From Halorussus marinus (GTDB lineage: Archaea; Halobacteriota; Halobacteria; Halobacteriales; Haladaptataceae), in contig NZ_SBIV01000006.1 of NCBI RefSeq assembly GCF_004765795.1, positions 124,001 to 188,000 of the forward strand: a stretch of 64,000 bases of DNA, in the 5' to 3' direction. Each line of letters begins with the position of its first letter. Position 1 is the first letter of the stretch. Of the stretch, positions 11,830 to 47,994 are shown piece by piece. The position numbers and the translations under genes were made by a program. The notes beneath the pieces were generated by a model. It did no database searches and was not told where the DNA came from. It was given only the letters and a program-made list of their open reading frames with translations.

Positions 11830-12710
11830 CCGTCAGCGTACTCGTTCCGTCGTCCCTCGTCCGGGAAGCCGAGGACAAACGCGAGGCAACTCGCAAGCTC
11901 GGCTACGTCGCCCGCGCGGCGATGGTGTTCCGGGCCGATCGCCTCGGGGTCTTTCCGGACCCCGACGGCGAACGCCACTGGGGCGGCGGGTTCGTAAGCA
12001 CCGTGCTGGAATACGCCGCGACGCCGCCCTACCTCCGAAAGGAGGTATTCGGCAAGCGCGACGAACTGGAGTACGCGGGCGTCCTACCGCCGCTCCGCGG
12101 CCCGTCGCTGACCGGCTCCGAATCCGAGGGTTCGGGGTCGTTAAGACAGGGAATCGTGACCGAGGTCGGACCTGAAGGGCGCGTTCGGGTCAATTGCGGA
12201 CTGCAACACCCGATCTCCCTCGTCGCACCGCCGAAAATGGCGGTCGAAGAGGGGGAGCGCGTCACCGTCAGGATCTCTTCGCGAAGTCCGGTCCGTGCGA
12301 AGCTCGTCGACGAACCCCTCCCGGGGTTCGGAGTGACGCGCACGGACCTCCCGGCGGCCCTCGACCGCGACGACGCGGGCGTTCGCATCGCGACGTCCCG
12401 CCACGGGGTCGAACTGACGACCGGGCGGCTGACCGAACTGGTCGGCCGCACAGCCGACGACGGGATGACCGTCGCTTTCGGCTCGCCCGGTCGCGGCCTG
12501 CCGGAGATACTCGACCTCTCGGTCGACTCGCTCGGCGACCCGGGCGACGGCCGCGAGGACGAGGCGGACGCGGAGTCCGGAGTCGAATCGGGCGCACCCG
12601 GCCGGTTCGACCTCTGGGTCAACGCGGTTCCGAATCAAGGCAGCGAGGTCGTGCGAACTGAAGAAGCGATGTTCGCCGCCCTCGCCTGCCTGAACCTCAA
12701 AGAGAAGTGA
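11826..12710 (+). CDS. SPOUT-class RNA methyltransferase (DUF171/SPOUT1 family)
   Basis: 294 residues. N-terminal 'VSVLVPSSLVREAEDKREATRKLGYVAR' (in pieces) and C-terminal 'AVPNQGSEVVRTEEAMFAAL' are the hallmarks of the archaeal/eukaryotic C9orf114-like SPOUT family; the C-terminal piece forms the SAM-binding trefoil knot. An OB-like insertion spans about residues 105-165. The target is probably rRNA, since the gene sits directly before uL3 at the head of the S10 operon as in many archaea. The gap to rpl3 is four bases. A region of about 35 residues before the knot is acidic and disordered ('DGREDEADAESGVESG'). Confidence 0.85.
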   Translation: MTVSVLVPSSLVREAEDKREATRKLGYVARAAMVFRADRLGVFPDPDGERHWGGGFVSTVLEYAATPPYLRKEVFGKRDELEYAGVLPPLRGPSLTGSESEGSGSLRQGIVTEVGPEGRVRVNCGLQHPISLVAPPKMAVEEGERVTVRISSRSPVRAKLVDEPLPGFGVTRTDLPAALDRDDAGVRIATSRHGVELTTGRLTELVGRTADDGMTVAFGSPGRGLPEILDLSVDSLGDPGDGREDEADAESGVESGAPGRFDLWVNAVPNQGSEVVRTEEAMFAALACLNLKEK

Positions 12711-12714
12711 TACG

Positions 12715-13731
12715 ATGCCAGAAACAAGCAGACCACGAAAAGGTTCGCTAGGGTTCGGCCCCCGCACGCGTGCGGCCAGCGAGGTTCCGCGCTTCAACTC
12801 GTGGCCCGACGGCGACGGCAGTCCGTCGCTCCAGGGCTTCGCGGGTTACAAGGCCGGCATGACCCATGTGGTGATGGTCAACGACGAGTCCGACTCCCCG
12901 CGCGAGGGGATGGAGGAGACCGTGCCCGTCACCATCGTGGAGACGCCGCCGATGCGAGCGGTCGCACTGCGAGCCTACGAGCAGACGCCGTACGGCAAGA
13001 AGCCGCTGACGGAAGTGTGGGGCGGAGAGTTCCACGAGGAACTCGACCGCACCCTCGACATCCCGAAGGAGTACGACACCGACGCCGCCGCCGACGAACT
13101 GCGCGAAGCAGTCGCGGACGGCGACGTCGCGGACCTCCGGGTCGTCACCCACACCGTCCCGAGCGAGATCGCCAGCGTCCCCAAGAAGAAGCCCGACGTG
13201 ATGGAGACTCGCGTCGGCGGCGGGTCGCTGGACGAGCGCGTCGACTTCGCGCTCGATCTCCTCGACGACGGCGGGGAACACGCGATGAACGACGTGTTCC
13301 GCGCGGGCGAGTACATGGACGTCAGCGGCGTGACCAAAGGGAAAGGAACGCAGGGCCCCGTCAAGCGGTGGGGCGTCCAGAAGCGCAAGGGCAAGCACGC
13401 CCGGCAGGGCTGGCGGCGCCGGATCGGTAACCTCGGCCCGTGGAACCCCTCCCGCGTGCGCTCGACCGTCCCCCAGCAGGGCCAGACCGGCTACCACCAG
13501 CGCACCGAACTCAACAAGCGCCTCGTCGACCTCGGCGAGGGCGACGACATCAACGTCGACGGCGGCTTCGTCAACTACGGCGAGGTCGACGGCGAGTACG
13601 CGCTGGTCAAAGGCTCGGTGCCCGGCCCGGACAAGCGCCTCCTGCGCTTCCGTCCCGCCGTCCGACCGAACGACCAACCGCGCCTCGACCCCGAGGTGCG
13701 GTACGTGAGCACCGAATCCAACCAGGGATAA
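12715..13731 (+). CDS. rpl3: 50S ribosomal protein uL3
   Basis: 338 residues, the usual archaeal/eukaryotic length. It binds 23S rRNA near the peptidyl transferase centre. Seen: the N-terminal 'RKGSLGFGPRTRA', 'GYKAGMTHVV', the central loop 'VTKGKGTQGPVKRWGVQKRK' and 'GQTGYHQRTELNKR'. It opens the S10 block proper and is followed by rpl4 after three bases. Confidence 0.97.
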   Translation: MPETSRPRKGSLGFGPRTRAASEVPRFNSWPDGDGSPSLQGFAGYKAGMTHVVMVNDESDSPREGMEETVPVTIVETPPMRAVALRAYEQTPYGKKPLTEVWGGEFHEELDRTLDIPKEYDTDAAADELREAVADGDVADLRVVTHTVPSEIASVPKKKPDVMETRVGGGSLDERVDFALDLLDDGGEHAMNDVFRAGEYMDVSGVTKGKGTQGPVKRWGVQKRKGKHARQGWRRRIGNLGPWNPSRVRSTVPQQGQTGYHQRTELNKRLVDLGEGDDINVDGGFVNYGEVDGEYALVKGSVPGPDKRLLRFRPAVRPNDQPRLDPEVRYVSTESNQG

Positions 13732-13734
13732 ACC

Positions 13735-14481
13735 ATGCAAGCAACTATCCGAAACCTCGACGGCGAGGAAGACGGCAGTGTGGACCTGCCGGACGTGTTC
13801 GAGACGACCGTCCGGACGGACCTCATCGAGCGCGCCGTCCTCGCCGCTCAGGCAAACCGAAAGCAGGACTACGGCGCCGACGATTACGCCGGGATGCGGA
13901 CCTCGGCGGAGTCGCCCGGCAGCGGCCGGGGCATGGCCCACGTTCCCCGAACGAACGGCGAGGCCGCCCGGGTCCCGCAGGCCGTCGGGGGTCGCAAGGC
14001 CCACCCGCCGAAAGAAGAGAAGGATCGCTCGCTCGACATCAACACCAAAGAGCGCAAGCAGGCGGTGCGGAGTGCGGTCGCCGCGACCGCCGACGCCGAC
14101 CGCGTGGCCGAGCGCGGCCATCAGTTCGACGACGACCTCGACCTGCCGCTCGTGGTGAGCGACGACTTCGAGGACCTCGTGAAGACCAAGGAAGTCGTCT
14201 CGTTCCTCGAAGCGGTCGGCGCAGACGCCGACGTCGAGCGCGCCGAGGAGAACCGCTCGATCCGGGCCGGTCAGGGGACGACCCGCGGCCGGAAGTACAA
14301 CACGCCCCGGTCGGTCCTGTTCGTGACCAGTAGCGAGCCCTCGAAGGCCGCCCGCAACCTCGCAGGCGCCGACGTGGCGACCGCCCGCGAGGTCAACACC
14401 GAGGACCTCGCGCCCGGCGCCGACGCCGGCCGACTCACCGTCTGGACCGAGAGCGCGATCGAGGAGGTGGCCGACCGATGA
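13735..14481 (+). CDS. rpl4: 50S ribosomal protein uL4
   Basis: 248 residues. Archaeal-type uL4: 'IRNLDGEEDGSVDLPDVF' at the N-terminus, the extended loop 'SGRGMAHVPRTNGEAARVPQ' that lines the exit tunnel, and 'RKYNTPRSVLFVTSS' near the end. Its stop codon overlaps the rpl23 start by four bases (ATGA), so the two are translationally coupled. Confidence 0.97.
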   Translation: MQATIRNLDGEEDGSVDLPDVFETTVRTDLIERAVLAAQANRKQDYGADDYAGMRTSAESPGSGRGMAHVPRTNGEAARVPQAVGGRKAHPPKEEKDRSLDINTKERKQAVRSAVAATADADRVAERGHQFDDDLDLPLVVSDDFEDLVKTKEVVSFLEAVGADADVERAEENRSIRAGQGTTRGRKYNTPRSVLFVTSSEPSKAARNLAGADVATAREVNTEDLAPGADAGRLTVWTESAIEEVADR

Positions 14482-14732
14482 GCGGTATCATCGAGTACCC
14501 GTGGGTCACCGAGAAGGCGATGAACGAGATGGACTTCAAGAACAAGCTCCAGTTCATCGTCCACCTCGACGCCGACAAGCCCGAGATCCGCGAGGAGATC
14601 GAGGACCAGTACGAGGTCACCGTCGAGAAGATCAACACGCAGGTCACCATGAACGGCGACAAGAAGGCCACGGTGACACTCTCGGAGGACGACGACGCGC
14701 AGGAAGTCGCCTCGAGAATCGGGGTGTTCTGA
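14478..14732 (+). CDS. rpl23: 50S ribosomal protein uL23
   Basis: 84 residues with the family's 'YPWVTEKAMNEMD' N-terminus and 'EEIEDQYEVTVEKINTQV'. It binds domain III of 23S rRNA at the tunnel exit and forms a docking site for SRP and the SecY channel. It overlaps rpl4 by four bases. Confidence 0.97.
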   Translation: MSGIIEYPWVTEKAMNEMDFKNKLQFIVHLDADKPEIREEIEDQYEVTVEKINTQVTMNGDKKATVTLSEDDDAQEVASRIGVF

Positions 14733-14735
14733 CAC

Positions 14736-15455
14736 ATGGGACGACGAATTCAAGGACAGCGACGCGGTCGCGGGACCTCCACGTTCCGAGCCCCGTCGCA
14801 CCGGTACAAGGCGGACCTCACGCACAAAAAGCCCGAAGAGCGAGACGTGGTCTCGGGGACGGTCGTGGACATCGAACACGACCCGGCCCGGAGCGCGCCG
14901 GTCGCGGCCGTCGAGTTCGACGACGGCGACCAGCGGCTCATCCTCGTGCCCGAGGGCGTCGGGATCGGCGAGCAACTCCAGATCGGCGTCAGCGCCGAGA
15001 TCAAGCAGGGCAACACGCTCCCGCTCGCCGAGATTCCGGAAGGCGTCCCGGTGTGTAACGTCGAGAGCAGTCCGGGCGACGGCGGGAAGTTCGCCCGCGC
15101 GTCCGGCGTGAGCGCGAGCCTCATCACCCACGACCGCGACGCCGCGGTCGTCGAACTCCCGAGCGGCGAGGTCAAGCGGCTCTCGCCCGACTGCCGGGCC
15201 ACCATCGGCGTGGTCGCCGGCGGCGGCCGGACCGAGAAGCCGATGGTCAAGGCCGGGAACAAGCACCACAAGATGAAAGCGCGGGGCACCAAGTGGCCGA
15301 ACGTGCGCGGCGTCGCGATGAACGCCGTCGACCACCCGTTCGGCGGCGGTGGCCGCCAGCACCCCGGCCGACCGAAGTCGGTCTCGCGGAACGCGCCGCC
15401 GGGCCGCAAGGTCGGAGACATCTCGTCTCGACGAACGGGACGAGGAGGGAACTAA
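14736..15455 (+). CDS. rpl2: 50S ribosomal protein uL2
   Basis: 239 residues. Contains the conserved C-terminal elements '[20 protein letters not shown]' and '[14 protein letters not shown]', which sit next to the peptidyl transferase centre, including the essential His in the '[14 protein letters not shown]' loop. Follows rpl23 after three bases and precedes rps19 by one base. Confidence 0.97.
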
Positions 15456-15456
15456 C

Positions 15457-15882
15457 ATGAGCGAAGGCGAGTACAGAACCGGCCGCGAGGGTGAGTTCAC
15501 CTTCCGCGGTCACACGCTAGACGAGTTGCAGGAGATGGACATCGACGAAGTCGCGGAACTGCTTCCCGCACGCCAGCGGCGAACTATCGAGCGGGGCCTG
15601 TCCACCGAGCAGCAGAAACTGCTCGAAGAGGCCCGCGAGGCCGGCGAGGAGGAGACGGCCAACGACCCGATCCGCACTCACCTGCGGAACATGCCGATCC
15701 TCCCGGAGTTCGTCGACAAGACGTTCGCGGTGTACACCGGTCAGAGCTTCGAGCGCGTGCGCGTCGAGCCCGAGATGCTCGGCCACTACCTCGGCGAGTT
15801 CCAGCTGACCCGAACCTCGGTCGAACACGGACAGGCCGGTATCGGGGCGACCCGCTCCTCGAAGTTCGTGCCACTCAAGTAA
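15457..15882 (+). CDS. rps19: 30S ribosomal protein uS19
   Basis: 141 residues from ATG at 15457, one base after the rpl2 stop codon. Seen: '[20 protein letters not shown]', '[19 protein letters not shown]' and the C-terminal '[14 protein letters not shown]'. Binds the head of the small subunit beside uS13. A longer frame upstream only overlaps rpl2 and is not used. Confidence 0.97.
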
Positions 15883-15885
15883 ATC

Positions 15886-16347
15886 ATGGGAATCAGCTAC
15901 AGCGTCGAGGCCGACCCGGACACCACCGCCAAGGGGATGCTCCGGGAGCGGCACATGAGTCACAAGCATAGCAAGGCCATCGCCCGCGAGATCAAGGGCA
16001 TGACCGCCGCCGACGCCGTCGACTACCTCCAGCAGGTCATCGACGGCGAGCGGTCGGTGCCGTTCAAGTCCCACAACAGCGGCGTGGGCCACCGAAGCGA
16101 CATCGACGGCTGGGACGCCGGTCGCTACCCCGAGAAGGCCAGTTCGGCGTTTCTCGACCTCATCGAGAACGTGGTCAACAACGCCGACGAGCAGGGCTTC
16201 GACGGCGAGGAGATGGAGATCATGCACGTCGCCGCCCACAAGGTCGGCGAGGTCCAGGGCCGCAAGCCCCGCGCGATGGGTCGCGCGAGCGCGTGGAACA
16301 CCATGGAAGTAGACGTCGAACTCATCCTCGAGGAGGCTGACGAGTAA
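15886..16347 (+). CDS. rpl22: 50S ribosomal protein uL22
   Basis: 153 residues. The beta-hairpin tip that reaches the exit tunnel is recognisable in 'RKPRAMGRASAWNTMEVDVE'; the body has 'MSHKHSKAIAREIKGMTAAD'. The stop overlaps the rps3 start by one base (TAATG). Confidence 0.97.
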   Translation: MGISYSVEADPDTTAKGMLRERHMSHKHSKAIAREIKGMTAADAVDYLQQVIDGERSVPFKSHNSGVGHRSDIDGWDAGRYPEKASSAFLDLIENVVNNADEQGFDGEEMEIMHVAAHKVGEVQGRKPRAMGRASAWNTMEVDVELILEEADE

Positions 16348-17267
16348 TGGCGGACGAACACCAGTTCATCGAAGACGGGCTCCAGCGCTCCCAGATCGAC
16401 GAGTTCTTCAGCGACGAACTCGGGCGCGCCGGCTACGGCGGCATGGACGTCGCCAAGACCCCGATGGGAACCCAGATCGTGCTGAAGGCCGAGAAGCCCG
16501 GCATGGTCATCGGCAAGGGCGGCAAGAACATCCGGAAGATCACCACCCAGCTCGAGGAGCGGTTCGACCTCGACGACCCGCAGATCGACGTTCAGGAGGT
16601 CGACGAGCCCGACCTGAACGCCCGGATCGTCGCCGACCGGCTCGCAAACGCCCTCGAACGCGGCTGGTACTTCCGGAAGGCCGGCCACACCACCATCGAC
16701 CGAATCATGGACGCGGGCGCGCTCGGCGCCGAGATCGTCCTCTCGGGCAAGGTGTCCGGGGCGCGTTCGCGCGTCGAGAAGTTCAACCGCGGCTACATCA
16801 AGCACAACGGCGAACCCGCCGAGGACATCGTCGACCACGGCCAGGGCGTCGCGGTGATGAAGCTCGGCACTATCGGCGTGGACGTCAAGATCATCCCGCC
16901 GGGCGCCGACCTCCCCGACGACTTCGAGATCCACGAGGGCGCGAGCCCCGAAGAGGTCGTCCCGGAGGCCGTCGAGGCCAACGAGTCGGTCGAGGAACTG
17001 CTCGACGAGCCGACCGACGAAGAACTCGAAGAGCTCGGCGCCGACGAGGCGGCCGAAGACGCCGACGAGTCCGACGAGCAGGCAGTCGACGAAGAGGTCG
17101 TCGAGGAGGTCCTCGAAGAGGAGACCGCGACAGACGAGGAGTCCGACGCGGACGCCGAGGCCGACGAGTCGGTCGAAGAGGAGCTCGACGAACTCGAAGA
17201 AGAGGTCGAACAGGAAGCCGAGGAGCTCATGGACGAGATGGACTCCGACGAGGAGGGTGACGAATAA
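16347..17267 (+). CDS. rps3: 30S ribosomal protein uS3 with long acidic tail
   Basis: 306 residues. The type II KH motif 'VIGKGGKNIRKIT' is near residue 53, followed by the S3 C-terminal domain ('VSGARSRVEKFNRGYIKHNG'). The last 90 or so residues are almost only Glu, Asp, Ala, Val and Ser, an acidic tail typical of haloarchaeal uS3. Overlaps rpl22 and rpl29 by one base each. Confidence 0.97.
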   Translation: MADEHQFIEDGLQRSQIDEFFSDELGRAGYGGMDVAKTPMGTQIVLKAEKPGMVIGKGGKNIRKITTQLEERFDLDDPQIDVQEVDEPDLNARIVADRLANALERGWYFRKAGHTTIDRIMDAGALGAEIVLSGKVSGARSRVEKFNRGYIKHNGEPAEDIVDHGQGVAVMKLGTIGVDVKIIPPGADLPDDFEIHEGASPEEVVPEAVEANESVEELLDEPTDEELEELGADEAAEDADESDEQAVDEEVVEEVLEEETATDEESDADAEADESVEEELDELEEEVEQEAEELMDEMDSDEEGDE

Positions 17268-17485
17268 TGGCGATCGTTCACGTCGAGGAGATCCGCGACA
17301 TGACCCCGGCAGAGCGCGAATCCGAGCTCGAAGAGCTCGAGACCGAACTGCTCAACGCGAAGGCCGTGAAGGCCGCGGGTGGCGCGCCCGAGGACCCCGG
17401 CCGATTCCAGGAACTGCGCCGGACCATCGCGCGCATCAAGACGGTCCAGCGCGAGAAAGGCGACCTGGACGAAGACGACGAATAA
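17267..17485 (+). CDS. rpl29: 50S ribosomal protein uL29
   Basis: 72 residues forming two long helices: 'EEIRDMTPAERESELEELET' and 'GRFQELRRTIARIKTVQREK'. Located at the tunnel exit next to uL23. One-base overlap with rps3; the RNase P subunit gene follows after one base. Confidence 0.96.
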   Translation: MAIVHVEEIRDMTPAERESELEELETELLNAKAVKAAGGAPEDPGRFQELRRTIARIKTVQREKGDLDEDDE

Positions 17486-17486
17486 C

Positions 17487-17915
17487 ATGCCACTCACACC
17501 CGAAACGCTGACGCGACACGAGCTCAACGGGCTGTCGGTCCGCGTCGTGGACGCGGCCAATCCGGACCTCGTCGGAATCGAGGGCCGGGTGGTCGCCGAG
17601 ACGCGGGCCACGCTGAGCGTCGCGTCGGCCGATCGGGTGCGGCAGGTGCAAAAGCAGGGCTCGACGTTCGAGTTCGCGCTCACAGATGAACCCGCCGACT
17701 GCTCCGGGCCGCGCTCGGAGCCCCGTCCCGTCTCGCGTGACGGCGCCGCCAAGGAGTCGGGGACCGCGTCCAAACGGGGATCGGAAACTGCCGGAGGTCG
17801 CTCCGGTCAGTCTGGTCACTGCGAGGGCGTGGCCTACGTTACGGTGGATGGCGCGCGACTGCTCTCACGACCCGAACTACGCACCGAGAAGGCAGGTGAA
17901 TCCAGATGGCAATAG
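17487..17915 (+). CDS. rnp1: RNase P protein component 1 (Rpp29/Rnp1) with insertion
   Basis: 142 residues from ATG at 17487. The Sm-like barrel is visible as '[20 protein letters not shown]', '[16 protein letters not shown]' and C-terminal '[18 protein letters not shown]'. Rnp1 binds the RNA subunit and aids 5' maturation of tRNA. About 45 residues rich in Ser, Gly, Lys and Arg (roughly 70-113) split the barrel between strands and lack the acidic bias of its neighbours. Position between uL29 and uS17 is the classical archaeal one. The end overlaps rps17 by ten bases. Confidence 0.9.
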
Positions 17916-18286
17916 GACTGAACGTAACAGAACCGGAGGAGACCTGCTCCGACGAGAACTGTCCCTTCCACGGAACGCTTTCCGTGCGCGGACAGACCCT
18001 CGAAGGAGAGGTCGCCTCCACAGACATGGACAAGACCGTGATCGTCGAGCGAGAGTACGACGTTCCGGTGCCGAAGTACGACCGGTACATGAAACGCCGG
18101 TCCCGCGTTCCGGCTCACGCGCCGGAGTGCCTCGGCCTGGAAGTCGGCGACACGGTTCGTATCGCAGAGACCCGACCGCTTTCGAAGACGAAGTCCCACG
18201 TCGTCGTCGAGACCCTCGACACGACCGAGGACTTCGGAGCGGGCGGCACCGAACACGCCGAAACCGACGAGGAGGGCGAAGACTGA
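17906..18286 (+). CDS. rps17: 30S ribosomal protein uS17
   Basis: 126 residues. Archaeal uS17 features: '[16 protein letters not shown]' near the N-terminus, then '[20 protein letters not shown]' and '[20 protein letters not shown]'. The C-terminus carries an acidic extension. Ten-base overlap with rnp1 and one-base overlap with rpl14 (TGATG). Confidence 0.96.
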
Positions 18287-18684
18287 TGGAGGCACTGAAG
18301 GCTGACGTCACGCAGGGCCTCGCGAAGGGCTCGCTGCTGACCTGCGCCGACAACACCGGCGCGCGCGAAGTCAAGGTCATCAGCGTCTCCGGCTACTCGG
18401 GCACCAAGAGCCGACACCCCAAGGCGGGGATCGGCGACAAGGTGACCGTCTCGGTCACCAAGGGTACCCCCGAGATGCGCCGGCAGGTGCTGGAGGCGGT
18501 CGTCGTCCGCCAGCGCAAGCCCATCCGTCGCCCCGACGGCACCCGCGTCAAGTTCGAAGACAACGCGGCCGTCATCATCGACGACGTCGAAGAGCCCCGC
18601 GGGACCGAGATCAAGGGTCCGATCGCGCGGGAAGTCGCCGAACGGTTCGGCTCGATCGCGAGCACGGCTACGATGATAGTATGA
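18286..18684 (+). CDS. rpl14: 50S ribosomal protein uL14
   Basis: 132 residues, start [18 protein letters not shown]. Contains '[15 protein letters not shown]' and '[19 protein letters not shown]', the core barrel of uL14, which contacts the GTPase-factor side of the large subunit. Coupled to rps17 by a one-base overlap and to rpl24 by a four-base overlap. Confidence 0.97.
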
Positions 18685-19037
18685 CTGAACAACCACGCAA
18701 ACAGCGAAACCAGACCGAAAGCGCCTCGCTCCACGAGCGTCACAAGCAGGTCAACGCCACGCTGTCCGACGACCTCCGCGAGGAGTTCGACACCCGGCGC
18801 GTCCGGGTCAACGCGGGCGACACCGTCGAGGTGATGCGCGGTGACTACGCCGGCGAAGAAGGCGAAGTCATCGACGTCGACCTCCGCGACGCGGTCGTTC
18901 GCGTCGAGGACGTGACGACCGAGAAGGCAGACGGGGAGGAAGTGCCCCGGGCGCTCGACGCGAGCAACCTCCGCGTGACCGACCTCGACCTCGAGGACGA
19001 CGTGCGCGAGGCGCGCCTCCGAGGTGACGACGAATGA
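18681..19037 (+). CDS. rpl24: 50S ribosomal protein uL24
   Basis: 118 residues. KOW motif '[20 protein letters not shown]' with the Gly turn in place; the N-terminal '[20 protein letters not shown]' is typical of archaeal/eukaryotic uL24. An early assembly protein. ATGA overlaps at both ends. Confidence 0.96.
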
Positions 19038-19777
19038 GCAACCACCAGAAACGACTCTCCGTTCCGAAGTCCTGGCCGGTCGAGCGCAAGACCGAGACGT
19101 TCACCGTGAAGGCCCAAGGCCCCCACGGCGAGGACGGCGTCCCGCTGCTGATCGTGCTGCGGGACGTGCTGGGCTACGTCGCGTCGCGGAAGGAAGCCCG
19201 CTACGCGCTCGAACAGGGCACGGTGCTGGTCAACGGCGACGCGAACGTCGCCGAGGACCGTCCCATCGGGATGTTCGACATCCTGGCGTTCACCGAGCGC
19301 GACGAGTACTACCGGGTGTTCCCCGACGAGGGCGGTCGGCTCGCGCTGACCCCCATCGACGCCGCGGACGCCGACAGCAAGCTCTCGAAGATCGAGGACA
19401 AGACGAAGGTCGCCGGCGGCCGGACGCAGCTCAACCTCCACGACGGGCAGAACCTGCTCGTCGAGGACGACGAGTACGCCGCCAAAGACTCGATCGTCAT
19501 CGACAACGACGACGGCGAGATCGTCGCCCACTTCCCCTACGAAGAGGGGAGCCTCGTGACCGCGGTTCGGGGGTCCCACGCCGGCGACATCGGCGAGGTC
19601 GACGAGATCCAGACCACTCCCGGCAGCGGTTCGAACAACGTCGTGGTCGACGCTGGCGACGACTCGTTCGAGACGGTCGAGGAGTACGTCGTCGTCATCG
19701 ACGAGAACTTCGTCGGCGACGAGGCGGACGCCGCCTCTGACGACGAGAGCTCCGAGGACGGAGGTGACGACGAATGA
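19034..19777 (+). CDS. rps4e: 30S ribosomal protein eS4
   Basis: 247 residues. Archaeal/eukaryotic-specific small-subunit protein with an S4-type RNA-binding stretch ('[20 protein letters not shown]'), a central domain and a KOW-like segment ('[15 protein letters not shown]'). The last 25 residues are acidic. ATGA overlaps with rpl24 and rpl5. Confidence 0.96.
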
Positions 19778-20298
19778 GCGAGTCGCAGGCCGACTTCCAC
19801 GAGATGCGGGAGCCGACCATCGAGAAGATCGTCGTCCACATGGGCGTCGGCGAGGGCGGCCGCGCGCTCGCGGACGCCGAGGAGATCATCGAGGACGTCA
19901 CCGGCCAGCAGAGCGTTCGGACGCAGGCGAAGGCCACCAAGCCCGAGTTCGGCATCCGGCAGGGCGACCCGATCGGCGCGAAGGTCACCCTGCGCGACGA
20001 CGAGGCCGAGGAGTTCCTCGAGACGGCACTCCCCATCGCGGACGTTTCGGCCGGGCAGTTCGACGACACCGGGAACTTCAGCTTCGGCATCGAGGAGCAC
20101 ACCGAGTTCCCGAGCCAGGAGTACGACCCCAACGTCGGCATCTACGGGCTCGACGTGACGGTCAATCTCGTCCGTCCCGGCTACCGTGTCTCGAAGCGAG
20201 ACAAGGTGACCCGTTCGATTCCGTCGGGTCATCGACTGAGCGCAGAGGACGCCATCGCGTACCTCGAAGCCAACTTCGACGTGGAGATAGAGCAATGA
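19774..20298 (+). CDS. rpl5: 50S ribosomal protein uL5
   Basis: 174 residues. '[20 protein letters not shown]' and '[20 protein letters not shown]' are typical of archaeal uL5, which holds 5S rRNA in the central protuberance with uL18. Four-base overlap with both neighbours. Confidence 0.97.
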
Positions 20299-20477
20299 GC
20301 GAAAGCGAAACCGAATCCGACGCGACGGGAGAGCACGCGGCCAAACGCACTGGCCAGATCGAGGAGTGCCAGCGCTGTGGCCGCAAGCAGGGACTGGTCG
20401 GCAAGTACGACATCAATCTGTGTCGCCAGTGCTTCCGCGAGATCGCCCGAAGCATGGGATTCAAGAAGTACCGATAA
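20295..20477 (+). CDS. rps14: 30S ribosomal protein uS14, zinc-binding
   Basis: 60 residues starting inside the last codons of rpl5. Two CxxC pairs ('CQRCGRK' and 'LCRQCFRE') form the zinc site of type Z uS14; the C-terminal '[10 protein letters not shown]' is conserved. The N-terminal 20 residues are an acidic extension. Confidence 0.96.
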
Positions 20478-20479
20478 CC

Positions 20480-20872
20480 ATGGCAGGAAACGATCCGCTG
20501 GCCAACGCACTCTCGGGCGTGGACAACGCCGAGAGCGTCGGGCATCTGAGCCACACGGTACAGCCCGCCTCGAACGAGATCGGCAGCGTACTCGAAGTCC
20601 TCTACGACCGAGGGTACATCGACGGCTTCGAGTTCGTCGACGACGGTAAAGCCGGAGAGTTCGAGGTCGAACTGAAAGGCGCAATCAACGAGTGCGGCGC
20701 GGTCAAGCCCCGGTACTCGGCCGGGGCCGACGAGTTCGAGAAGTGGGAGAAGCGGTTCCTCCCCGCCCGGGACTACGGGGCGCTCGTCGTCACGACCAGC
20801 CGCGGCGTCATGAGCCACTACGAGGCCCGCGAGCGCGGCGTCGGTGGCCAGATCATCGCCTACGTGTACTAA
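20480..20872 (+). CDS. rps8: 30S ribosomal protein uS8
   Basis: 130 residues from ATG at 20480. Contains '[19 protein letters not shown]' and the C-terminal rRNA-binding '[20 protein letters not shown]'. Central platform protein of the small subunit. Two bases separate it from both neighbours. Confidence 0.97.
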
Positions 20873-20874
20873 CA

Positions 20875-21411
20875 ATGGCACGAGTAGAACTGGAAATTCC
20901 GGACGAGGTAACCGCCGAGATGGACCACCTCGAACTCACCGTCGAGGGTCCGAACGGCGCCGTCACCCGACGCCTCTGGTACCCCGACGTGACCGTCGAA
21001 ACGGACGACGGCTCGGTGGTCATCGAGAGCGAGGAGAACGACGCGAAGACGAACGCGACCGTCGGCACGTTCGAGAGCCACGTTCGCAACATGTTCCACG
21101 GCGTGACCGAGGGCTGGGAGTACACCATGGAGGTGTTTTACTCTCACTTCCCGATGCAGGTCCGCGCCGAGGGCGACGAGGTCGTCATCGAGAACTTCCT
21201 CGGAGAGAAAGCCCCGCGACGGACCGACGTTCACGGCGACACGACCGTCGACGTGGACGACGAGGTCGTCCGTCTCAGCGGCCCGAGCATCGAGGACGTC
21301 GGCCAGACCGCCGCGGACATCGAGCAGTTGACCCGCGTGCAGGACAAGGACACCCGCGTGTTCCAGGACGGCGTCTACATCACCGAGAAGCCCCAGACTG
21401 GAGGTGTCTAA
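20875..21411 (+). CDS. rpl6: 50S ribosomal protein uL6
   Basis: 178 residues made of two related alpha/beta domains, with 'VEGPNGAVTRRLWYPDVTVE', 'NMFHGVTEGWEYTMEVFYSH' and 'FLGEKAPRRTDVHGDTTVDV'. Lies near the factor-binding site of the large subunit. Confidence 0.97.
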   Translation: MARVELEIPDEVTAEMDHLELTVEGPNGAVTRRLWYPDVTVETDDGSVVIESEENDAKTNATVGTFESHVRNMFHGVTEGWEYTMEVFYSHFPMQVRAEGDEVVIENFLGEKAPRRTDVHGDTTVDVDDEVVRLSGPSIEDVGQTAADIEQLTRVQDKDTRVFQDGVYITEKPQTGGV

Positions 21412-21414
21412 CGA

Positions 21415-22119
21415 ATGGCAGACGAACCCCAAGAGCTTGAAGACATCAGCGGCGTCGGCCCGAGCAAGGCCGACTCGCTGCGCGAGGCCGGCTTCGACGC
21501 CGTCGAGGACGTCAAGGCGGCCAGTCAGGACGAGCTCGCCGAGGTCGAAGGCATCGGGAACGCCCTCGCGGCCCGCATCAAGGCGGACGTGGGCGGGCTC
21601 GAAGTCGAGGACGAGACCGAGGCAGAGATCGAAGAAGACGAGACCGAAGCCGACGAGGCCGAGGCCGAGGAGGTCGAGACCGAACTCCAGCCCCGCGGGC
21701 TGGTCGACAAGACGCCCGACCTCACCGAGCGCGAGGAGGAACTGCTCGCCCAGCGCAAGCGCGTGGGCAAACCGCAGTTCAACCGTCAGGACTACCACAA
21801 GAAAAAGCGCACCCCGACCTCGTGGCGGCGTCCGAAGGGGACGCTGTCGAAACAGCGCCGCGGCATCAAGGGCAAGGGCCCGAAGGTCGAGGCGGGCTAC
21901 CGCACGCCGAAGGCGGTGCGCGGCAAGCACCCCAGCGGCTTCGAGGAAGTCCGCGTCCACAACGTCGACGACCTCGAGGGCGTCGACGGCGACCGCGAGG
22001 CGGTCCGCATCGCCTCGAAGGTCGGCGCCCGCAAGCGCGAGCGCATCGAAGAACAGGCAGAAGACCAGGGCGTCCGCGTCCTGAACCCGACCTACGAGGA
22101 AGTGGAGGTCGACGAATGA
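21415..22119 (+). CDS. rpl32e: 50S ribosomal protein eL32 with N-terminal helix-hairpin-helix domain
   Basis: 234 residues. The C-terminal half is eL32 ('[20 protein letters not shown]', '[19 protein letters not shown]'). The first 65 residues are an added helix-hairpin-helix domain ('[16 protein letters not shown]' and '[14 protein letters not shown]'), joined by an acidic linker of about 35 residues. This extension is known in haloarchaeal eL32. ATGA overlap with rpl19e. Confidence 0.95.
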
Positions 22120-22556
22120 CTGACCTGAACGCACAGAAGCGACTCGCCTCGGACGTGCTCGACGTCGGCGAGAACCGCGTCTGGTTCGACCCCGACGCGC
22201 AGGGCGACATCGCGGAGGCGATCACCCGCGAGGACATCCGCGAACTCGTCGAAGACGGCACGATTCGGGCCAAGGACAAGAAGGGCAACTCCCGCGGTCG
22301 CGCCCGCAAGCGCAAGCAAAAGCGCGACTACGGGCACCAGACCGGCCCCGGCACCCGCAAGGGGAAGGCGGGCGGTCGCCAGAACGAGAAAGAACAGTGG
22401 CAGAAGACGATCCGCGCACAGCGCCGGAAGCTCAAGGAACTCCGCGCCGAGGGTGAGATCACCCAGTCGCAGTACCGCGACCTCTACGACAAGGCGAAAG
22501 GCGGCGAGTTCCGGAGCGTCCGGTATCTGCTGAACTACATCGAGAGTAACTACTAA
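22116..22556 (+). CDS. rpl19e: 50S ribosomal protein eL19
   Basis: 146 residues from ATG at 22116. '[20 protein letters not shown]', '[17 protein letters not shown]' and the C-terminal helix are diagnostic. Archaeal/eukaryotic-specific protein near the tunnel exit that also bridges to the small subunit. Confidence 0.97.
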
Positions 22557-22558
22557 CC

Positions 22559-23110
22559 ATGGCAACAGGACCACGATACACGGTGCCGATGCGCCGTCGC
22601 CGCGAGGTCCGGACCAACTACCATCAGCGGTTGCGCCTGCTGAAATCCGGTAAGCCCCGGCTGGTCGCTCGCAAGAGCAACAAGCACGTCAGGGCGCAGC
22701 TGGTCACGATGGGTCCGGACGGCGACGAGACAGTCGCGAGCGCCTTCTCGGGCGACCTCGAGGAGTACGGCTGGGAGGCCCCCACGGGCAATCTCCCGAG
22801 CGCGTACCTCACGGGGTACCTGCTCGGAAAGCGTGCGCTCGACGCGGGGTACGAGGAGGCGGTGCTCGACATCGGCCTCAACACCGCGACGCCCGGCAAC
22901 AAGGCCTTCGCGGTGCAGGAGGGCGCTATCGACGCCGGCCTCGAGATCCCCCACAACGAGTCGGTGCTCGCCGACTGGTCGCGTAACCGCGGCGAACACA
23001 TCGCCGAGTACGCCCAACAGCGCGACGAGCCCCTCTACAGCGGGGAGTTCGACGCGACGGAACTGCCCGAGCACTTCGACGACGTGCTCGAAACGCTACA
23101 GGAGGACTAA
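22559..23110 (+). CDS. rpl18: 50S ribosomal protein uL18
   Basis: 183 residues. N-terminal basic 'PMRRRREVRTNYHQRLRLLK', 'RLVARKSNKHVRAQLV', and 'LTGYLLGKRALDAGYEEAVL'. Binds 5S rRNA together with uL5. Confidence 0.97.
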   Translation: MATGPRYTVPMRRRREVRTNYHQRLRLLKSGKPRLVARKSNKHVRAQLVTMGPDGDETVASAFSGDLEEYGWEAPTGNLPSAYLTGYLLGKRALDAGYEEAVLDIGLNTATPGNKAFAVQEGAIDAGLEIPHNESVLADWSRNRGEHIAEYAQQRDEPLYSGEFDATELPEHFDDVLETLQED

Positions 23111-23113
23111 CAC

Positions 23114-23761
23114 ATGTGTGCAAACCACGACGGCTGGGAACCCCAGACCCGTCTCGGCCGCAAAGTCGCCGAGGGCGAGATCGACACGATGGAGGACGCC
23201 CTCAACTCCGGCCTCCCGCTGAAGGAGTCCGAACTCGTCGACCAGCTCCTGCCGGGGCTCGAAGACGAGGTACTGGACATCAACATGGTCCAGCGGATGA
23301 CCGACTCCGGTCGCCGCGTGAAGTTCCGATGCGTCGTCGCGATCGGTAACCGCGACGGCTACGTCGGCTACGCGGAGGGCCGCGACGATCAGGTCGGCGG
23401 GGCCATCCAGAAGGCGATCGACATCGCGAAGCTCAACCTCATCAAGGTCAACCGCGGCGCCGGGTCGTGGGAGGACCGAAGCGACCGACCCCACTCGCTG
23501 GCCCGCCGGACGACCGGCAAGGCCGGCTCGGTCGAGGTCGAACTGATCCCCGCCCCGACCGGGCTGGGACTCGCGGCGACCGACACCGTCCGGAAGATTC
23601 TGGAACTGGGCGGCGTCGAGAACGCCTGGACCAAGAGCCACGGCAACACCCGCACCACGCTCAACCTCGCCAAGGCGACCTACAACGCCCTGGAGAACGC
23701 CGCCGAGTCGCGCGGCCCGCGAGGTCAGGTGGACTTCGAAGAGGAGGTAGCCGACTCATGA
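23114..23761 (+). CDS. rps5: 30S ribosomal protein uS5
   Basis: 215 residues. Double-stranded-RNA-binding-like N-terminal domain with '[20 protein letters not shown]', then '[20 protein letters not shown]' and 'NRGAGSWED'. Important for decoding accuracy. ATGA overlap with rpl30. Confidence 0.97.
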
Positions 23762-24222
23762 AGGCGGTCGTCCAGATTCGGGGCGAAGTCGACATGAGCG
23801 GGGACATCCAGGACACCCTGGAGATGCTCAACATCCACCGCGTGAACCACTGCGCGCTGGTCCCCGACGGCGACGCCTACCGCGGGATGATCACGAAGGT
23901 CAACGACTACACCGCGTACGGCGAACCGAGCCAGGACGTGCTCGAAACCCTGCTCGAGAAGCGCGCCGAGCCCGCCGAGGGTTCGGCCGACGTCGACGAC
24001 GAGTGGGTCGCGGACAACACCGACTACGACGGCGTCAGCGACCTTGCGTCGGCACTGCTCGACGACGAGACGACCCTGCGCGAGCAGGGACTCGCACCGG
24101 TCCTTCGCCTCCACCCGCCGCGGGGCGGCCACGAGGGGCTCAAACACCCCGTCGTGGAGGGCGGCGAACTCGGCAAGCACGACACCGAGGAGATCGACGC
24201 GCTCCTCAAGGCGATGCGATAA
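23758..24222 (+). CDS. rpl30: 50S ribosomal protein uL30
   Basis: 154 residues from ATG at 23758. '[20 protein letters not shown]', '[15 protein letters not shown]' and '[17 protein letters not shown]' are characteristic of the long archaeal uL30. Confidence 0.96.
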
Positions 24223-43641: not shown

Positions 43642-44499
43642 ATGGGAACGACGCAACTGGAGTTCGACAGCGACGTGGAACGTCGCGTCTACGAGTACGT
43701 CGAGGTCCGCGGGGCGGCCGCCCGCGAGGAGGTCCGGGACGCGGTCCGGGTCGCGGAGACGCCGGGCGCGAAGCCGCCCCGGTCGGGAATCGAGTCGGCG
43801 ACCCGGCTCTCGGTGCCGGCGTGCAACGAGCACATCGACGAACTGCTCGACGACGGGGCGCTGGCCGAGCGCGACGGGACCCTCTACGTCTCGCCCGACG
43901 CCGGGACCGACCGCCACGAGACCGACGAGTTCGAGTACGTCGTCCGCCCCGCCGACGAGCGCGACCGGGCGGCGGTCGCCGACCTCATCCGATCGGTCGC
44001 CGCCGAGGGGGCCATCGTCGTCGACGAGCGCGTGGCCGACGCCGTCGAGCCCCGCTCGACGAACCGCCGGACGCGGTCCGACGCCCCGACCGACCGCGAG
44101 GGCGCGCTGATCCGGCTGAACGACCGGGAGTCGCGGATGTTCTTCGTCGCCGAGATCCCGGGCGAGGAGGACGCGGCCGACGAGACGATCGGGTGGGTCA
44201 ACGTCCACGGGTTCGAGCTTCCGGCCCGAGAACACACCGCCGAGCTCACCGTCGGCGTCGCCCCCGAGTACCGCGAGCAGGGGGTCGGCGGGGCGCTCCT
44301 CGAACGCGGGATCGCGTGGGCCGACGACGCCGGCTGTCTCAAGGTGTACCAGAGCATCCCGGCGACCAACGAGGAGGCCCTCGACCTGCTCGAAACCCAC
44401 GGCTGGGAGCGGGAGGCGACCCGGGCGGACCACTACCGGATCGACGGCGAACTCGTCGACGAGGTCCAGCTCGCGACCCGCCTCGACGAGTCGGATTAG
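43642..44499 (+). CDS. Winged-helix/GNAT acetyltransferase fusion
   Basis: 285 residues. N-terminal HTH-like region (about 1-90: 'DVERRVYEYVEVRGAAAREE' ... 'LDDGALAERDGTLYVSPD') joined to a GNAT domain with the acetyl-CoA loop 'VAPEYREQGVGGALLERGIA' and 'PATNEEALDLLETHGWERE'. Acceptor unknown; could be a protein acetyltransferase or regulator. ATG 43642 is chosen over in-frame ATG 43612 because an AT-containing box (CCAATACC, about 43602-43609) lies between. Its stop codon overlaps the stop of the opposing gene. Confidence 0.8.
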   Translation: MGTTQLEFDSDVERRVYEYVEVRGAAAREEVRDAVRVAETPGAKPPRSGIESATRLSVPACNEHIDELLDDGALAERDGTLYVSPDAGTDRHETDEFEYVVRPADERDRAAVADLIRSVAAEGAIVVDERVADAVEPRSTNRRTRSDAPTDREGALIRLNDRESRMFFVAEIPGEEDAADETIGWVNVHGFELPAREHTAELTVGVAPEYREQGVGGALLERGIAWADDAGCLKVYQSIPATNEEALDLLETHGWEREATRADHYRIDGELVDEVQLATRLDESD

Positions 44500-45674
44500 C
44501 GCTCGGCGAACACGCCGCCGATCAGAGACGCGAACAGGAGCGCACCGGCCAGCGCGCTCGCCCGGCCGGCGGTCACCGCGCCGGTCGACCCCGCTATCGC
44601 CCCCGAAAGCTCGGCGGCCAGTCCCGCGCCGACCAGCCCGATCGACGCCAGCGCGGTCCGGTCGGACGCCCCGGGAAACGAGCCCACCGTCGGCGGGTAG
44701 AACTGGTAGGTCGCCCCGACGATCGTCAGCCCGAGAAACCCAAGCGCGTTGAGCCGGAAGTGGACCGCCGTCAGCCCGCCCGCGACCCCGGCGAACGCGA
44801 AGTGAACCCCCAGCCCGACCCCCGCGAGCCCGCAGACGCCCCCCGCGAGCGGGCCGTACAGCCCGACCCGCCGGCGCTCGGATCGGGCGAACAGCCCGGC
44901 GTAGGCGGCCCCGAACCCGATCACGGCGACCGCTTCGAGCACCGCGCCGACCCGGAACCACGCCCCGCCGTAGAAGTGCCACGCGAGCACTCCGGGGCCG
45001 AGCGCGCCCGCGGGGAGGACGACCGCGACCAGCGCGCGCGGGGGCGCGGCCACCAGAAACCGCGGGAACAGCCGGAAGCCGACCGCGAACACCAGCAGGG
45101 CGGCGACGCCGGCCGCGAGCAGGTGGGCGGTCGGCGCGGCCCCGAGCGCCATCGGCCGCGGGCCGCCGACGCGGGTCGCCAGCGTGGCGTAGCTCCCCGC
45201 CAGCAGGTACGCGAGCGCGACCGGCACGAACGCGTTGGCGTACCGGTCGACCGACTCGCGGTGGGCGTTCGGGCCGCCGGTCCCCGTCTCGCGGCCCGTG
45301 GGGTTGTCCCGGAGCGTCCACGCGAGCGCGCCGACGAACACCGCGACCCCGCCGGCCCACAGGACCGCGCCCGCGACCCCGACCCAGTCGGGGACGCCGG
45401 CGAGCGGTTCGACCGCGAGACAGCCGGCGGCGAGCGCCGCGAGCGGGAGGTGGATCGCGGGCGCGGCCGGGGTCGCGAGCGTCCGGTCGAAGTACGACGG
45501 CACCAGCGAGTAGGCCTTCCCGAACACCGCGTGGAGGACGAACCCGTAGACCGCGAGTACGACGCAACTCCGACGGGGCAGGCCGGCGAGCGCGGCCGCC
45601 TGCCACGCGACCAGATAGCCGGCGCTCGCCGCGAGGAACCGCCGGGCCCGTCGGGACACCGCGTCGGCGGCCAT
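44496..45674 (-). CDS. Polytopic membrane protein, heme-copper oxidase/NnrS-like
   Basis: 392 residues, about twelve TM segments. Histidines recur at TM positions: 'VLHAVFGKAYSLVPSYF', 'AIHLPLAALAAG', 'TAHLLAAGVAALLVFAVGFR', 'LAWHFYGGAWF' and 'VHFAFAG' followed by 'AVHFRLNALGFLGLTIVGA'. The last segment resembles the heme-ligand region of NO reductase/cbb3-like and NnrS-type proteins. It follows a ubiquitin-fold gene by one base, downstream of a NarO-type palindrome, which suggests a role in NO or anaerobic metabolism. Family assignment is tentative. Confidence 0.6.
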   Translation of the reverse strand: MAADAVSRRARRFLAASAGYLVAWQAAALAGLPRRSCVVLAVYGFVLHAVFGKAYSLVPSYFDRTLATPAAPAIHLPLAALAAGCLAVEPLAGVPDWVGVAGAVLWAGGVAVFVGALAWTLRDNPTGRETGTGGPNAHRESVDRYANAFVPVALAYLLAGSYATLATRVGGPRPMALGAAPTAHLLAAGVAALLVFAVGFRLFPRFLVAAPPRALVAVVLPAGALGPGVLAWHFYGGAWFRVGAVLEAVAVIGFGAAYAGLFARSERRRVGLYGPLAGGVCGLAGVGLGVHFAFAGVAGGLTAVHFRLNALGFLGLTIVGATYQFYPPTVGSFPGASDRTALASIGLVGAGLAAELSGAIAGSTGAVTAGRASALAGALLFASLIGGVFAER

Positions 45675-45675
45675 C

Positions 45676-46089
45676 CTAGCAGCAGAAGATGAACGGGTAC
45701 ATCAGCGAGACCCGGTCACCGTCCGAGAGCTCGGTGTCGAGCCCCGCGAGGTGTTCGTTGAAGGTGCCGTCGATCGCCACCCGGGCGTACTGGCGGGTCT
45801 GCTCGCCCTCGGGGTTCTTGTGCCACGTCCCCGGGAGCTCGTCGGGCGGGTCGGCCCAGCCGTCGGTGGTCGCTTCGTCCTCGGTCTCGGCGATGAGCAG
45901 GTCTTTCACGTCGTACGCCTCGAAGAACGCCTCGAGGAGCGCCCGGAGGGTCGTCCCCTCGAAGGTGAACTCCAGTCCGGCCGCCCCGACCGCCTCGCGG
46001 ACGTGGCCGGTACAGCGCACCTCGACGGTGGTCGTCTCGTGGGTCTCGCCGGTCGGCCGCTCGGCGCCGCGCTCGGTCGTAGTGGTCAT
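45676..46089 (-). CDS. MoaD/ThiS-fold protein ending in Cys-Cys
   Basis: 137 residues from ATG at 46089. A beta-grasp layout is visible: first strand 'TVEVRCTGHVREAVG', helix 'TLRALLEAFFEAYDVKDLLI', a 35-residue insertion, 'QYARVAIDGTFNEHLAGLDT' and the end 'LSDGDRVSLMYPFIFCC'. The 'LxDGDxVsLmyP' ending matches MoaD/ThiS/SAMP proteins, but the terminal Gly-Gly is replaced by Cys-Cys, so adenylation-based sulfur transfer or conjugation by the normal route is not expected. First gene of an operon with the membrane protein (one-base gap). The N-terminal 20 residues are Thr/Glu-rich. Confidence 0.75.
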   Translation of the reverse strand: MTTTTERGAERPTGETHETTTVEVRCTGHVREAVGAAGLEFTFEGTTLRALLEAFFEAYDVKDLLIAETEDEATTDGWADPPDELPGTWHKNPEGEQTRQYARVAIDGTFNEHLAGLDTELSDGDRVSLMYPFIFCC

Positions 46090-46126
46090 AGTTGTGGCTA
46101 CGTGAGCCACGGGGGAATAGGACCTT

Positions 46127-46140
46127 CCGAACATGTTCGG
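46127..46140. promoter_or_regulatory. Perfect 14-bp palindrome, NarO-type operator candidate
   Basis: CCGAACATGTTCGG is self-complementary over its whole length and contains CGAA-N4-TTCG. It lies between two divergent start codons (46089 minus, 46197 plus). Candidate TATA elements flank it: minus strand CCTATTCC at about 46113-46123 and plus strand CCTATTTC at 46165-46172. To my knowledge a CGAA-N4-TTCG repeat marks anaerobically induced denitrification and DMSO-reductase promoters in Haloferax volcanii (NarO/DmsR). Confidence 0.7.
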
Positions 46141-46196: not shown

Positions 46197-46580
46197 ATGG
46201 ACGAGATCTCGCTCACGCTACCCGAGGCGATCGTCGAATCGCTCCCGTCCGACGGCGACGACGCGGCCCGTGACATGGAGGAGGCGGTCGCCGGGTGGGA
46301 ACGCCGGCTCAACCGCGCCATCGCGGCCGCCGACGCCGACGACGACGCCGCGGCCGCGGTCGTCGACGCCCTCGAACGGTTCGAGAACCGCTTCGAGCAG
46401 TACGACGACTTCGTGGCCGAACTCCGGGCGTGGGGCCAGTCGCCGATCTACGCGATGGCGTGGCGCGACCTGATGGGAGCGCTCGCCCGACAGCTCTACG
46501 ACCACGAGGACCTCGGCGAGCGCATCGACCGCGAGCGCCACGCGCGGCTGGTCAGCGACGGCATCCGGTTCGGCGACTGA
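46197..46580 (+). CDS. Helical protein of unknown function
   Basis: 127 residues from ATG 46197. Mostly helical: 'ISLTLPEAIVESLPSDGDDA', 'MEEAVAGWERRLNRAIAAAD', and 'PIYAMAWRDLMGALARQLYD'. No known motif. TATA-like CCTATTTC (46165-46172) about 28 bases upstream and the palindrome 25 bases beyond it suggest anaerobic control shared with the divergent operon. The next gene begins two bases after the stop. Confidence 0.68.
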   Translation: MDEISLTLPEAIVESLPSDGDDAARDMEEAVAGWERRLNRAIAAADADDDAAAAVVDALERFENRFEQYDDFVAELRAWGQSPIYAMAWRDLMGALARQLYDHEDLGERIDRERHARLVSDGIRFGD

Positions 46581-47086: not shown

Positions 47087-47356
47087 ATGGACGTGGAACT
47101 GCGGTTTTTCGCCACCTTTCGGGAGGCCGTCGGACAGAAAGTGCTCGAACGCGAGGTCGAGCCGGGAACCACGGTCGGGGAGGTGCTCGACGACCTCGTG
47201 GCCGAGTACGACCTCGACGTCTACGAGGACGGCGACATCAGATCGCAGGTGTCGGTGATGAAAAACGGGACGGACGTCTACCACCTCGACGGGATCGACA
47301 CCGCGCTGGCCGACGGCGACGCGGTGAGCGTCTTCCCGCCGGTCGCGGGGGGATAG
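47087..47356 (+). CDS. SAMP/MoaD-type ubiquitin-like protein
   Basis: 89 residues, start MDVELRFFATFREAVGQK, end 'AVSVFPPVAGG'. The beta-grasp fold with a C-terminal di-glycine is that of MoaD sulfur carriers and of the small archaeal modifier proteins (SAMPs). From memory the N- and C-termini are most like SAMP3 of Haloferax. UbaA would adenylate the terminal Gly for conjugation to lysines or for sulfur transfer. TATA-like GGTTTA (47055-47060) is 27-30 bases before ATG 47087; this favours 47087 over the in-frame TTATG-associated start nine codons earlier. Confidence 0.88.
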   Translation: MDVELRFFATFREAVGQKVLEREVEPGTTVGEVLDDLVAEYDLDVYEDGDIRSQVSVMKNGTDVYHLDGIDTALADGDAVSVFPPVAGG

Positions 47357-47626
47357 ATGCGGGTCGAGAAGTCGTTTCGCGGCATCTCCGAGCGACTCGC
47401 GCGCCGGTACCTCTCGAACCTCGGCGGCGAGATCGAGGGCGGGGACCCCGAAGGCGACGGCGACGTGATCGCCGACGAGTGGCGCGCGAGCCTCTCCTCG
47501 GAGAAGGTCTCGATCGGCCCGTCGGTCAAACTGACCGAGGTGACGGTCGTCTTCGAGGGCGACGCGGAGCGCCTCGACGACCTCGTCGAGGCCTTCTCCC
47601 AGAAGGCGATGCGCGCGGGGGGATGA
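47357..47626 (+). CDS. Small alpha/beta protein in the SAMP operon
   Basis: 89 residues: 'RVEKSFRGISERLARRYLSN', then 'VIADEWRASLSSEKVSIGPS' and 'KLTEVTVVFEGDAERLDDLV'. It begins at the base after the SAMP stop codon, so it is co-translated. It resembles the C-terminal domain seen fused to some MoaD-related proteins (DUF1952-like), in which case carrier and partner would be encoded separately here; this is tentative. It also ends in Gly-Gly. Confidence 0.65.
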   Translation: MRVEKSFRGISERLARRYLSNLGGEIEGGDPEGDGDVIADEWRASLSSEKVSIGPSVKLTEVTVVFEGDAERLDDLVEAFSQKAMRAGG

Positions 47627-47988
47627 CCGAGGACAACCCCGTCGAGGGGCAAGTGCTGGTCCTCACGGCCGCGAAGGCCAGCGTCGACGGCCGGCGGTTG
47701 CCCGAGCTGGTCGCGGCGGGCCGGCGGGCGGTCGAGCCGCGGGTCGACGAGTTCCGGCGCCGGTTCGAGTGCGTCCACGAGGACGACGTCCGGGCGGTCT
47801 TTCTCGCGCCCGAGGGGTTCTGGGCGGAGGTCGGCGAGGCGCTCGGGTGGTCGCGGCGCGAACACGAGGCGGTCGCGCGCGCCCACGCCGAGCAACTGCT
47901 CAGGGTCGGCGGTCGCGAGGACCGCCGCGAGGAGTTCGAGACCGCCCTCGACCTGCGGGCGGCGGTCGTGGTCGGCGCCGACGCGTAG
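47623..47988 (+). CDS. Uncharacterised protein, third gene of the SAMP operon
   Basis: 121 residues, ATGA overlap with the preceding gene. 'GQVLVLTAAKASVDGRRLPE', 'FECVHEDDVRAVFLAPEGFW' and 'ALGWSRREHEAVARAHAEQL'. A single alpha/beta domain with no recognised active site. Operon position suggests a link with the ubiquitin-like protein. Confidence 0.65.
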   Translation: MTEDNPVEGQVLVLTAAKASVDGRRLPELVAAGRRAVEPRVDEFRRRFECVHEDDVRAVFLAPEGFWAEVGEALGWSRREHEAVARAHAEQLLRVGGREDRREEFETALDLRAAVVVGADA

Positions 47989-47994
47989 GCGGCG

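Follow-up and report, generated by a model that had tools for sequence, protein, structure and literature searches.

What may a ubiquitin-fold protein do when its C-terminus ends in cysteine? This question is raised by a small gene in the 64,000-nucleotide stretch of Halorussus marinus DNA analyzed here (hereafter, the window). A Gly-Gly ending and activation by an E1 enzyme are the defining traits of ubiquitin-fold sulfur carriers and modifiers, and the class-wide family of Cys-tailed proteins to which this gene belongs lacks the former and has probably dropped the latter. In the initial annotation, the Cys-Cys end was read as a vicinal dithiol on a MoaD-like fold, which could bind metal, carry sulfur or serve as redox or copper donor to the membrane protein encoded next to it. 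The features of the locus are compiled in Table 1.

Table 1 Features of the locus, given in window positions
Feature	Positions	Strand	Basis or remark
Cys-tailed MoaD/SAMP-fold gene, 137 aa, arCOG00539-type, end PFIFCC	45676..46089	-	Translation, Pfam, AlphaFold2, Foldseek; start by fixed box distance
Perfect palindrome CGAACATGTTCG, haloarchaeal denitrification promoter box, 38 bases before start codon	46128..46139	.	Motif scan; match to Haloferax mediterranei nor/nos
TATA-like element TATT between box and start codon (putative function)	46116..46119	-	T-rich peak common to homologues
CGTA, possible transcription start region (putative function)	46099..46102	-	Conserved column peak
Membrane protein P0002, 392 aa, 13 helices, heme-copper oxidase/NO-reductase subunit I fold	44496..45674	-	One-base gap to Cys-tailed gene; Foldseek; three invariant His
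Divergent small gene (fam13), context; may share the palindrome	46197..46580	+	
Ordinary Gly-Gly SAMP, closest to Haloferax HVO_2177 (SAMP3), comparison protein	47087..47356	+	
Small Gly-Gly-ending protein adjoining the SAMP (fam12), context	47357..47626	+	

Gene identity and fold

Translation of the minus strand yields an open frame with the C-terminus ...LSDGDRVSLMYPFIFCC, and the gene is present in one copy in its genome. The ATG at 46089 is probably its start codon, a choice backed by the fixed spacing between this position and the promoter box. A second in-frame ATG at 46134 (minus strand) lies within the promoter palindrome and extends the mechanically called reading frame by 15 codons to 152 aa, but a start at this position is likely a mis-annotation. 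The same upstream-ATG trap is carried by homologues, the start of which is thus possibly called too early by gene callers. No RNA element was found in the region using Rfam.

Based on homology and predicted fold, the protein is a member of the MoaD/SAMP/ThiS superfamily, in agreement with the ubiquitin fold of MoaD/SAMP kind assigned initially. It matches Pfam ThiS above cut-off (E 1.2e-6), while its scores against the NCBIfam models SAMP1 (NF041918; 22.3 of 60 bits) and moaD_arch (TIGR01687; 31.1 of 49.5 bits) fall below the curated cut-offs. An AlphaFold2 model calculated with 120 homologues as input displays a beta-grasp fold (pLDDT 84, pTM 0.74), for which Foldseek returned SAMP1 (2l52), SAMP3 (HVO_2177; 2m19), MoaD, CysO and Urm1 as top matches. 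With SAMP1 and SAMP3 of Haloferax and archaeal MoaD, the protein has in common the beta-grasp fold, the D-G-D-x-V strand and the exit point of a flexible tail. In contrast to these, it lacks Gly-Gly and is preceded by a different promoter, its tail is hydrophobic and one residue longer with Cys at the position of the terminal Gly, and it contains an additional segment (approximately residues 66-100, missing from SAMP) with the invariant W78 and the motif KNPEGEQT. The sequence of the Cys-tailed protein shows no apparent signal peptide.

A single conserved thiol in the C-terminal tail

The last two residues of the fetched homologues are CC (77), CL (21), CV (14), CF (8) or CY (1). Other ends are rare and belong to damaged or paralogous copies, and a Gly-Gly end, the lack of which had been noted initially for the window protein, occurs in none of the fetched homologues. 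Damaged, truncated or shifted-frame homologues (e.g., L091, L135, L137 and L144) were attributed to breakage or faulty assembly, and most of them were excluded from the alignment. Across the 122 aligned sequences, P132, F133 and F or Y135 are each found in 121 and Cys136 in 118, whereas Cys137 occurs in 76 and is otherwise mostly replaced by Leu, Val or Phe. Even among the 118 sequences retaining Cys136, residue 137 is Leu, Val, Phe or Tyr in 43, and at least 11 switches between Cys and non-Cys were counted for this residue on a tree that was calculated from an alignment excluding the tail and in which many forks are unresolved. Since Cys136 is near-invariant while residue 137 switches, Cys136 is taken as the conserved thiol, followed by a residue that just needs to be Cys or hydrophobic; judged from the sequences, the conserved feature is hence a hydrophobic single-thiol tail of the form PF-[MIL]-[FY]-C-[C/L/V/F]. 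A -CC end fixed in all homologues, as considered in the initial annotation, is therefore replaced by a fixed penultimate Cys, and a vicinal dithiol as working group is not supported, since residue 137 is too variable for a mechanism strictly requiring two thiols to hold across the family.

The CC end itself is genuine. Across 121 homologues, each of the three stop codons is used to terminate the tail (TGA 77, TAG 33, TAA 11) and residue 136 is encoded by TGC (76) as well as TGT (44), so that a sequencing error or frame extension, raised earlier as a potential objection, is ruled out by varied stops and synonymous Cys codons. In the structural model, residues 135-137 exhibit a pLDDT below 50, which fits a flexible tail and upholds the proposed conserved thiol at a flexible C-terminus. 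When the protein is aligned with the Gly-Gly SAMP, the gene of which lies at a distance of 1 kb, Cys136 coincides with the terminal Gly of the SAMP and residue 137 appears as one extra residue. Further potential ligand residues are His29 (110/122) and Cys26 (76/122), with Cys26 and Cys137 varying independently and frequently. Tandem second copies without the tail Cys, with ends such as PFLFAP or VEPLTV, were observed at L133:5661-6044, L134:5095-5478 and L132:5568-5951; these adjoin copies retaining it.

Two alternative functions are suggested by this tail. As P132, F133 and F/Y135 are as conserved as Cys136, the protein could be a non-catalytic regulator, the tail of which inserts into the groove of a protein partnering with MoaD/SAMP, such as MoaE or UbaA, and thereby blocks or scaffolds this partner under anaerobiosis, with the Cys being structural or acting as NO sensor. 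The missing Gly-Gly, and with it ordinary carrier chemistry, as well as the adjoining Gly-Gly SAMP in some lineages would be in line with such a role. Pure docking, however, would not require a Cys in 118 of 122 sequences next to a variable residue, and we consider this reading unlikely. Alternatively, Cys136 might bear an isoprenoid or archaeol, tethering the protein at the membrane near respiratory enzymes, since the hydrophobic tail, with a Cys as its last or penultimate residue, is reminiscent of the C-termini that are prenylated in eukaryotes. The known archaeal lipobox is confined to exported lipoproteins, however, and we know of no enzyme lipidating such a cytoplasmic tail. Although archaeol on the cysteine of archaeal lipoproteins has been described (PMC13290415) and genes of membrane proteins neighbor the Cys-tailed gene, a lipid anchor appears quite improbable.

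Promoter box and probable regulon

In 111 of 125 homologues, the motif CGAA-N4-TTCG occurs in the 260 bases preceding the conserved core, compared to 157 of 5396 background stretches (2.9%). The layout following the palindrome is mostly fixed, with a T-rich element approximately 10-12 bases and CGTA approximately 25 bases further on, while the start codon follows after 37-38 bases in 73 of 110 cases. The exact 12-mer CGAACATGTTCG occurs just twice in the genome; its other copy is located between the gene of a NarO/DmsR-like regulator and that of a DUF2249-like protein, with nirK at a distance of about 11 kb. In Haloferax mediterranei, the nor and nos promoters carry the same 12-mer motif, mutation of which reduces activity (PMC10062603). 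According to PMC5746218, which cites Hattori 2016, transcription of nirK in H. volcanii requires CGAA-N4-TTCG. Among control families of the same loci, the box precedes NirK (13/16) and CGCGG genes (15/19) as positive controls, while it was found before none of the AOR (0/15), SAMP (0/7), PurF (0/19) and DnaK (0/9) genes and before 27 of 535 genes of other families. Additionally, it is retained in 41 of the 49 homologues without a telling neighbor.

Given the box in front of 111 of 125 homologues together with denitrification-type neighbors, the Cys-tailed gene very probably belongs to the anaerobic/denitrification (NarO-type) regulon, which represents the best-supported new result of this study. 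The encoded protein thus probably serves denitrification-type metabolism. The AOR/SAMP3 cluster as regulon of the Cys-tailed gene was ruled out, as AOR and SAMP genes lack the box. Three small genes make up this cluster (47087-47989), namely that of the SAMP3-type Gly-Gly protein, that of another Gly-Gly protein and a third one, and an AOR gene is located further along. Clusters of this type recur, without the box, beside the Cys-tailed gene in several families.

These data also bear on an ordinary MoaD/SAMP function as E1-activated sulfur carrier or protein modifier, for which the shared fold and Pfam family as well as the AOR/SAMP cluster adjoining in some lineages could be quoted. A bulky last residue, however, is unsuited to glycyl adenylation, none of the homologues has kept Gly-Gly, and the box sets the Cys-tailed gene apart from the box-less AOR and SAMP genes. 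Hence, such a function is highly improbable.

Gene neighborhood

Recurrent neighbors of the Cys-tailed gene include radical SAM TIGR04053 and pseudo-SAM TIGR04347 proteins (31 loci), NarO-like HTH proteins (23 loci), two families of heme-copper-oxidase-like membrane proteins (fam3, equal to P0002, 22 loci; fam4, 19 loci), CGCGG TIGR03995 (19 loci), NirK TIGR02376 (16 loci), AOR (16 loci) and NorB (7 loci). Out of 124 loci, 61 contain a denitrification-type neighbor, 18 the AOR/SAMP cluster and 49 neither. In Halorussus halophilus, the Cys-tailed gene clusters with nirK and genes of a cbb3/NOR-type subunit, halocyanin, a radical SAM protein, hemG and an HTH protein.

P0002 and the Cys-tailed gene are likely located on the same transcript in this genome. 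The subunit I fold of P0002 was retrieved by Foldseek with a probability of 1.00 to cbb3, aa3 and NOR, while no Pfam or NCBIfam model matched. Across 22 sequences, three histidines (His48, His184 and His305) never vary, and His75 is almost invariant. A similar COX-type protein encoded near nirK, HFX_2180, has been seen in the Haloferax mediterranei proteome (PMC7754194). As fixed partner, P0002 was rejected: the fetched loci, mostly spanning 12 kb, contain a P0002 homologue for just 24 of the 125 Cys-tailed homologues, and it is mainly in Halorussus that P0002 directly follows the Cys-tailed gene, so that the constant pairing with the membrane protein considered at first did not hold.

Because heme-copper-fold membrane genes of two families recur nearby and His29 and Cys26 are frequently retained, the protein might also be a metal-thiolate or redox donor, in which Cys136, joined by Cys137, Cys26 or His29 in those homologues that have them, coordinates Cu(I) or iron for delivery to P0002 and similar heme-copper-type membrane proteins or to other enzymes of denitrification. 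With only one thiol being invariant, however, a classical copper site formed by two thiols is disfavored, and the membrane partner is not fixed. Moreover, NirK is matured outside the cytoplasm, at odds with a protein without apparent signal peptide. A role as metal donor is therefore rather doubtful.

The CGCGG family with its TIGR04053 radical SAM system is a recurrent neighbor sharing the same box, but it bears no sequence relation to the Cys-tailed protein and each is found without the other. These putative radical-SAM-modified peptides (TIGR03995; fam5, e.g., L054 and L060) are themselves strongly linked to NirK across haloarchaeal genomes (odds ratio 22).

Distribution and prior record

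The family was found in 246 of 392 sampled Halobacteria genomes, covering 59 of 86 genera, after two weak SAMP matches had been dropped from 248 matched genomes. When 295 genomes sampled across the phylum were searched by profile, it was not found outside of Halobacteria, the single weak match there ending in PPVSGG and being an ordinary SAMP; for bacteria, the search covered plasmid records. Co-occurrence with NirK at genome level is moderate (odds ratio 2.8, not corrected for kinship), and 91 of the 246 genomes with the Cys-tailed gene lack NirK, which weakens the idea of a strict NirK partner. The association with CGCGG, which accompanies the Cys-tailed gene in 192 genomes, is slightly stronger (odds ratio 4.2, likewise without kinship correction). 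The NarG model TIGR01580 matched 0 haloarchaeal genomes and is thus uninformative on co-occurrence with NarG.

A Halobacteria beta-grasp family with a double-cysteine C-terminal motif "CC" had been described as arCOG00539, based on few genomes and with no function given (Makarova and Koonin 2010, PMC2948915). The Cys-tailed protein fits arCOG00539, going by its description and not by its member list. In contrast to that description, only the penultimate Cys is invariant here and a regulon is assigned. The accession appears in no further paper of the literature searched, and plasmid-borne copies are annotated as "MoaD/ThiS family protein" or "pterin cluster protein". While the CC ending was thus already known in 2010, the corrected end rule, promoter box, regulon, gene contexts and structural placement are new.

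Proposed role of the tail cysteine

Urm1 and CysO, both Gly-Gly sulfur carriers, share the fold of the Cys-tailed protein. Their sulfur is bound as C-terminal thiocarboxylate, which is made by E1 enzymes; without Gly-Gly, this usual route would be closed to the Cys-tailed protein. Cys136 occupies the position of the residue that bears the sulfur on its carboxylate in MoaD, which would make the protein a carrier with a side-chain thiol. With a probability of roughly 0.4, we thus favor an E1-independent haloarchaeal offshoot of MoaD/SAMP within the denitrification regulon, in which the Cys136 thiol carries sulfur, most likely as persulfide. Fold, tail, Gly-Gly loss, promoter box and gene context of this proposal are directly supported. 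At low oxygen, the gene would be induced along with denitrification genes, as suggested by the box, and the offshoot would have lost its Gly-Gly (E1) chemistry. Its flexible hydrophobic tail might dock into partner proteins in the fashion of a MoaD tail, thereby presenting the Cys136 thiol where MoaD and SAMP bear the terminal-glycine thiocarboxylate. The persulfide (or other cargo) would be loaded by a desulfurase or rhodanese instead of ATP and an E1 enzyme, and its sulfur may be used in the maturation of cofactors or enzymes of anaerobic respiration.

This carrier proposal is favored by the MoaD/SAMP/Urm1 fold, the denitrification box, the retention of Cys136 in 118 of 122 sequences, its alignment with the terminal Gly, and the NirK, NorB, NarO-like, radical SAM and CGCGG neighbors. 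Counting against it are the moderate co-occurrence with NirK, the loss of the Cys in a few tandem paralogues and the make-up of the named recurrent neighbors, in which sulfur-transfer genes such as those of a desulfurase or rhodanese were not noted. It is conceivable, though only tentatively put forward, that a persulfide on a Cys side chain replaces the E1-made thiocarboxylate in a ubiquitin/MoaD-fold carrier, giving an ATP-independent sulfur relay dedicated to haloarchaeal anaerobic respiration.

With one tail Cys and a denitrification box, the family constitutes a testable candidate for an unrecognized accessory factor of haloarchaeal anaerobic respiration. As it is also present in genomes identified as Haloferax (tail PFLYCV), genetic experiments are feasible. 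Elsewhere in the window, positions 12001-24000 display a strong AT skew (0.25-0.30) and a GC content somewhat below that of most of the window.
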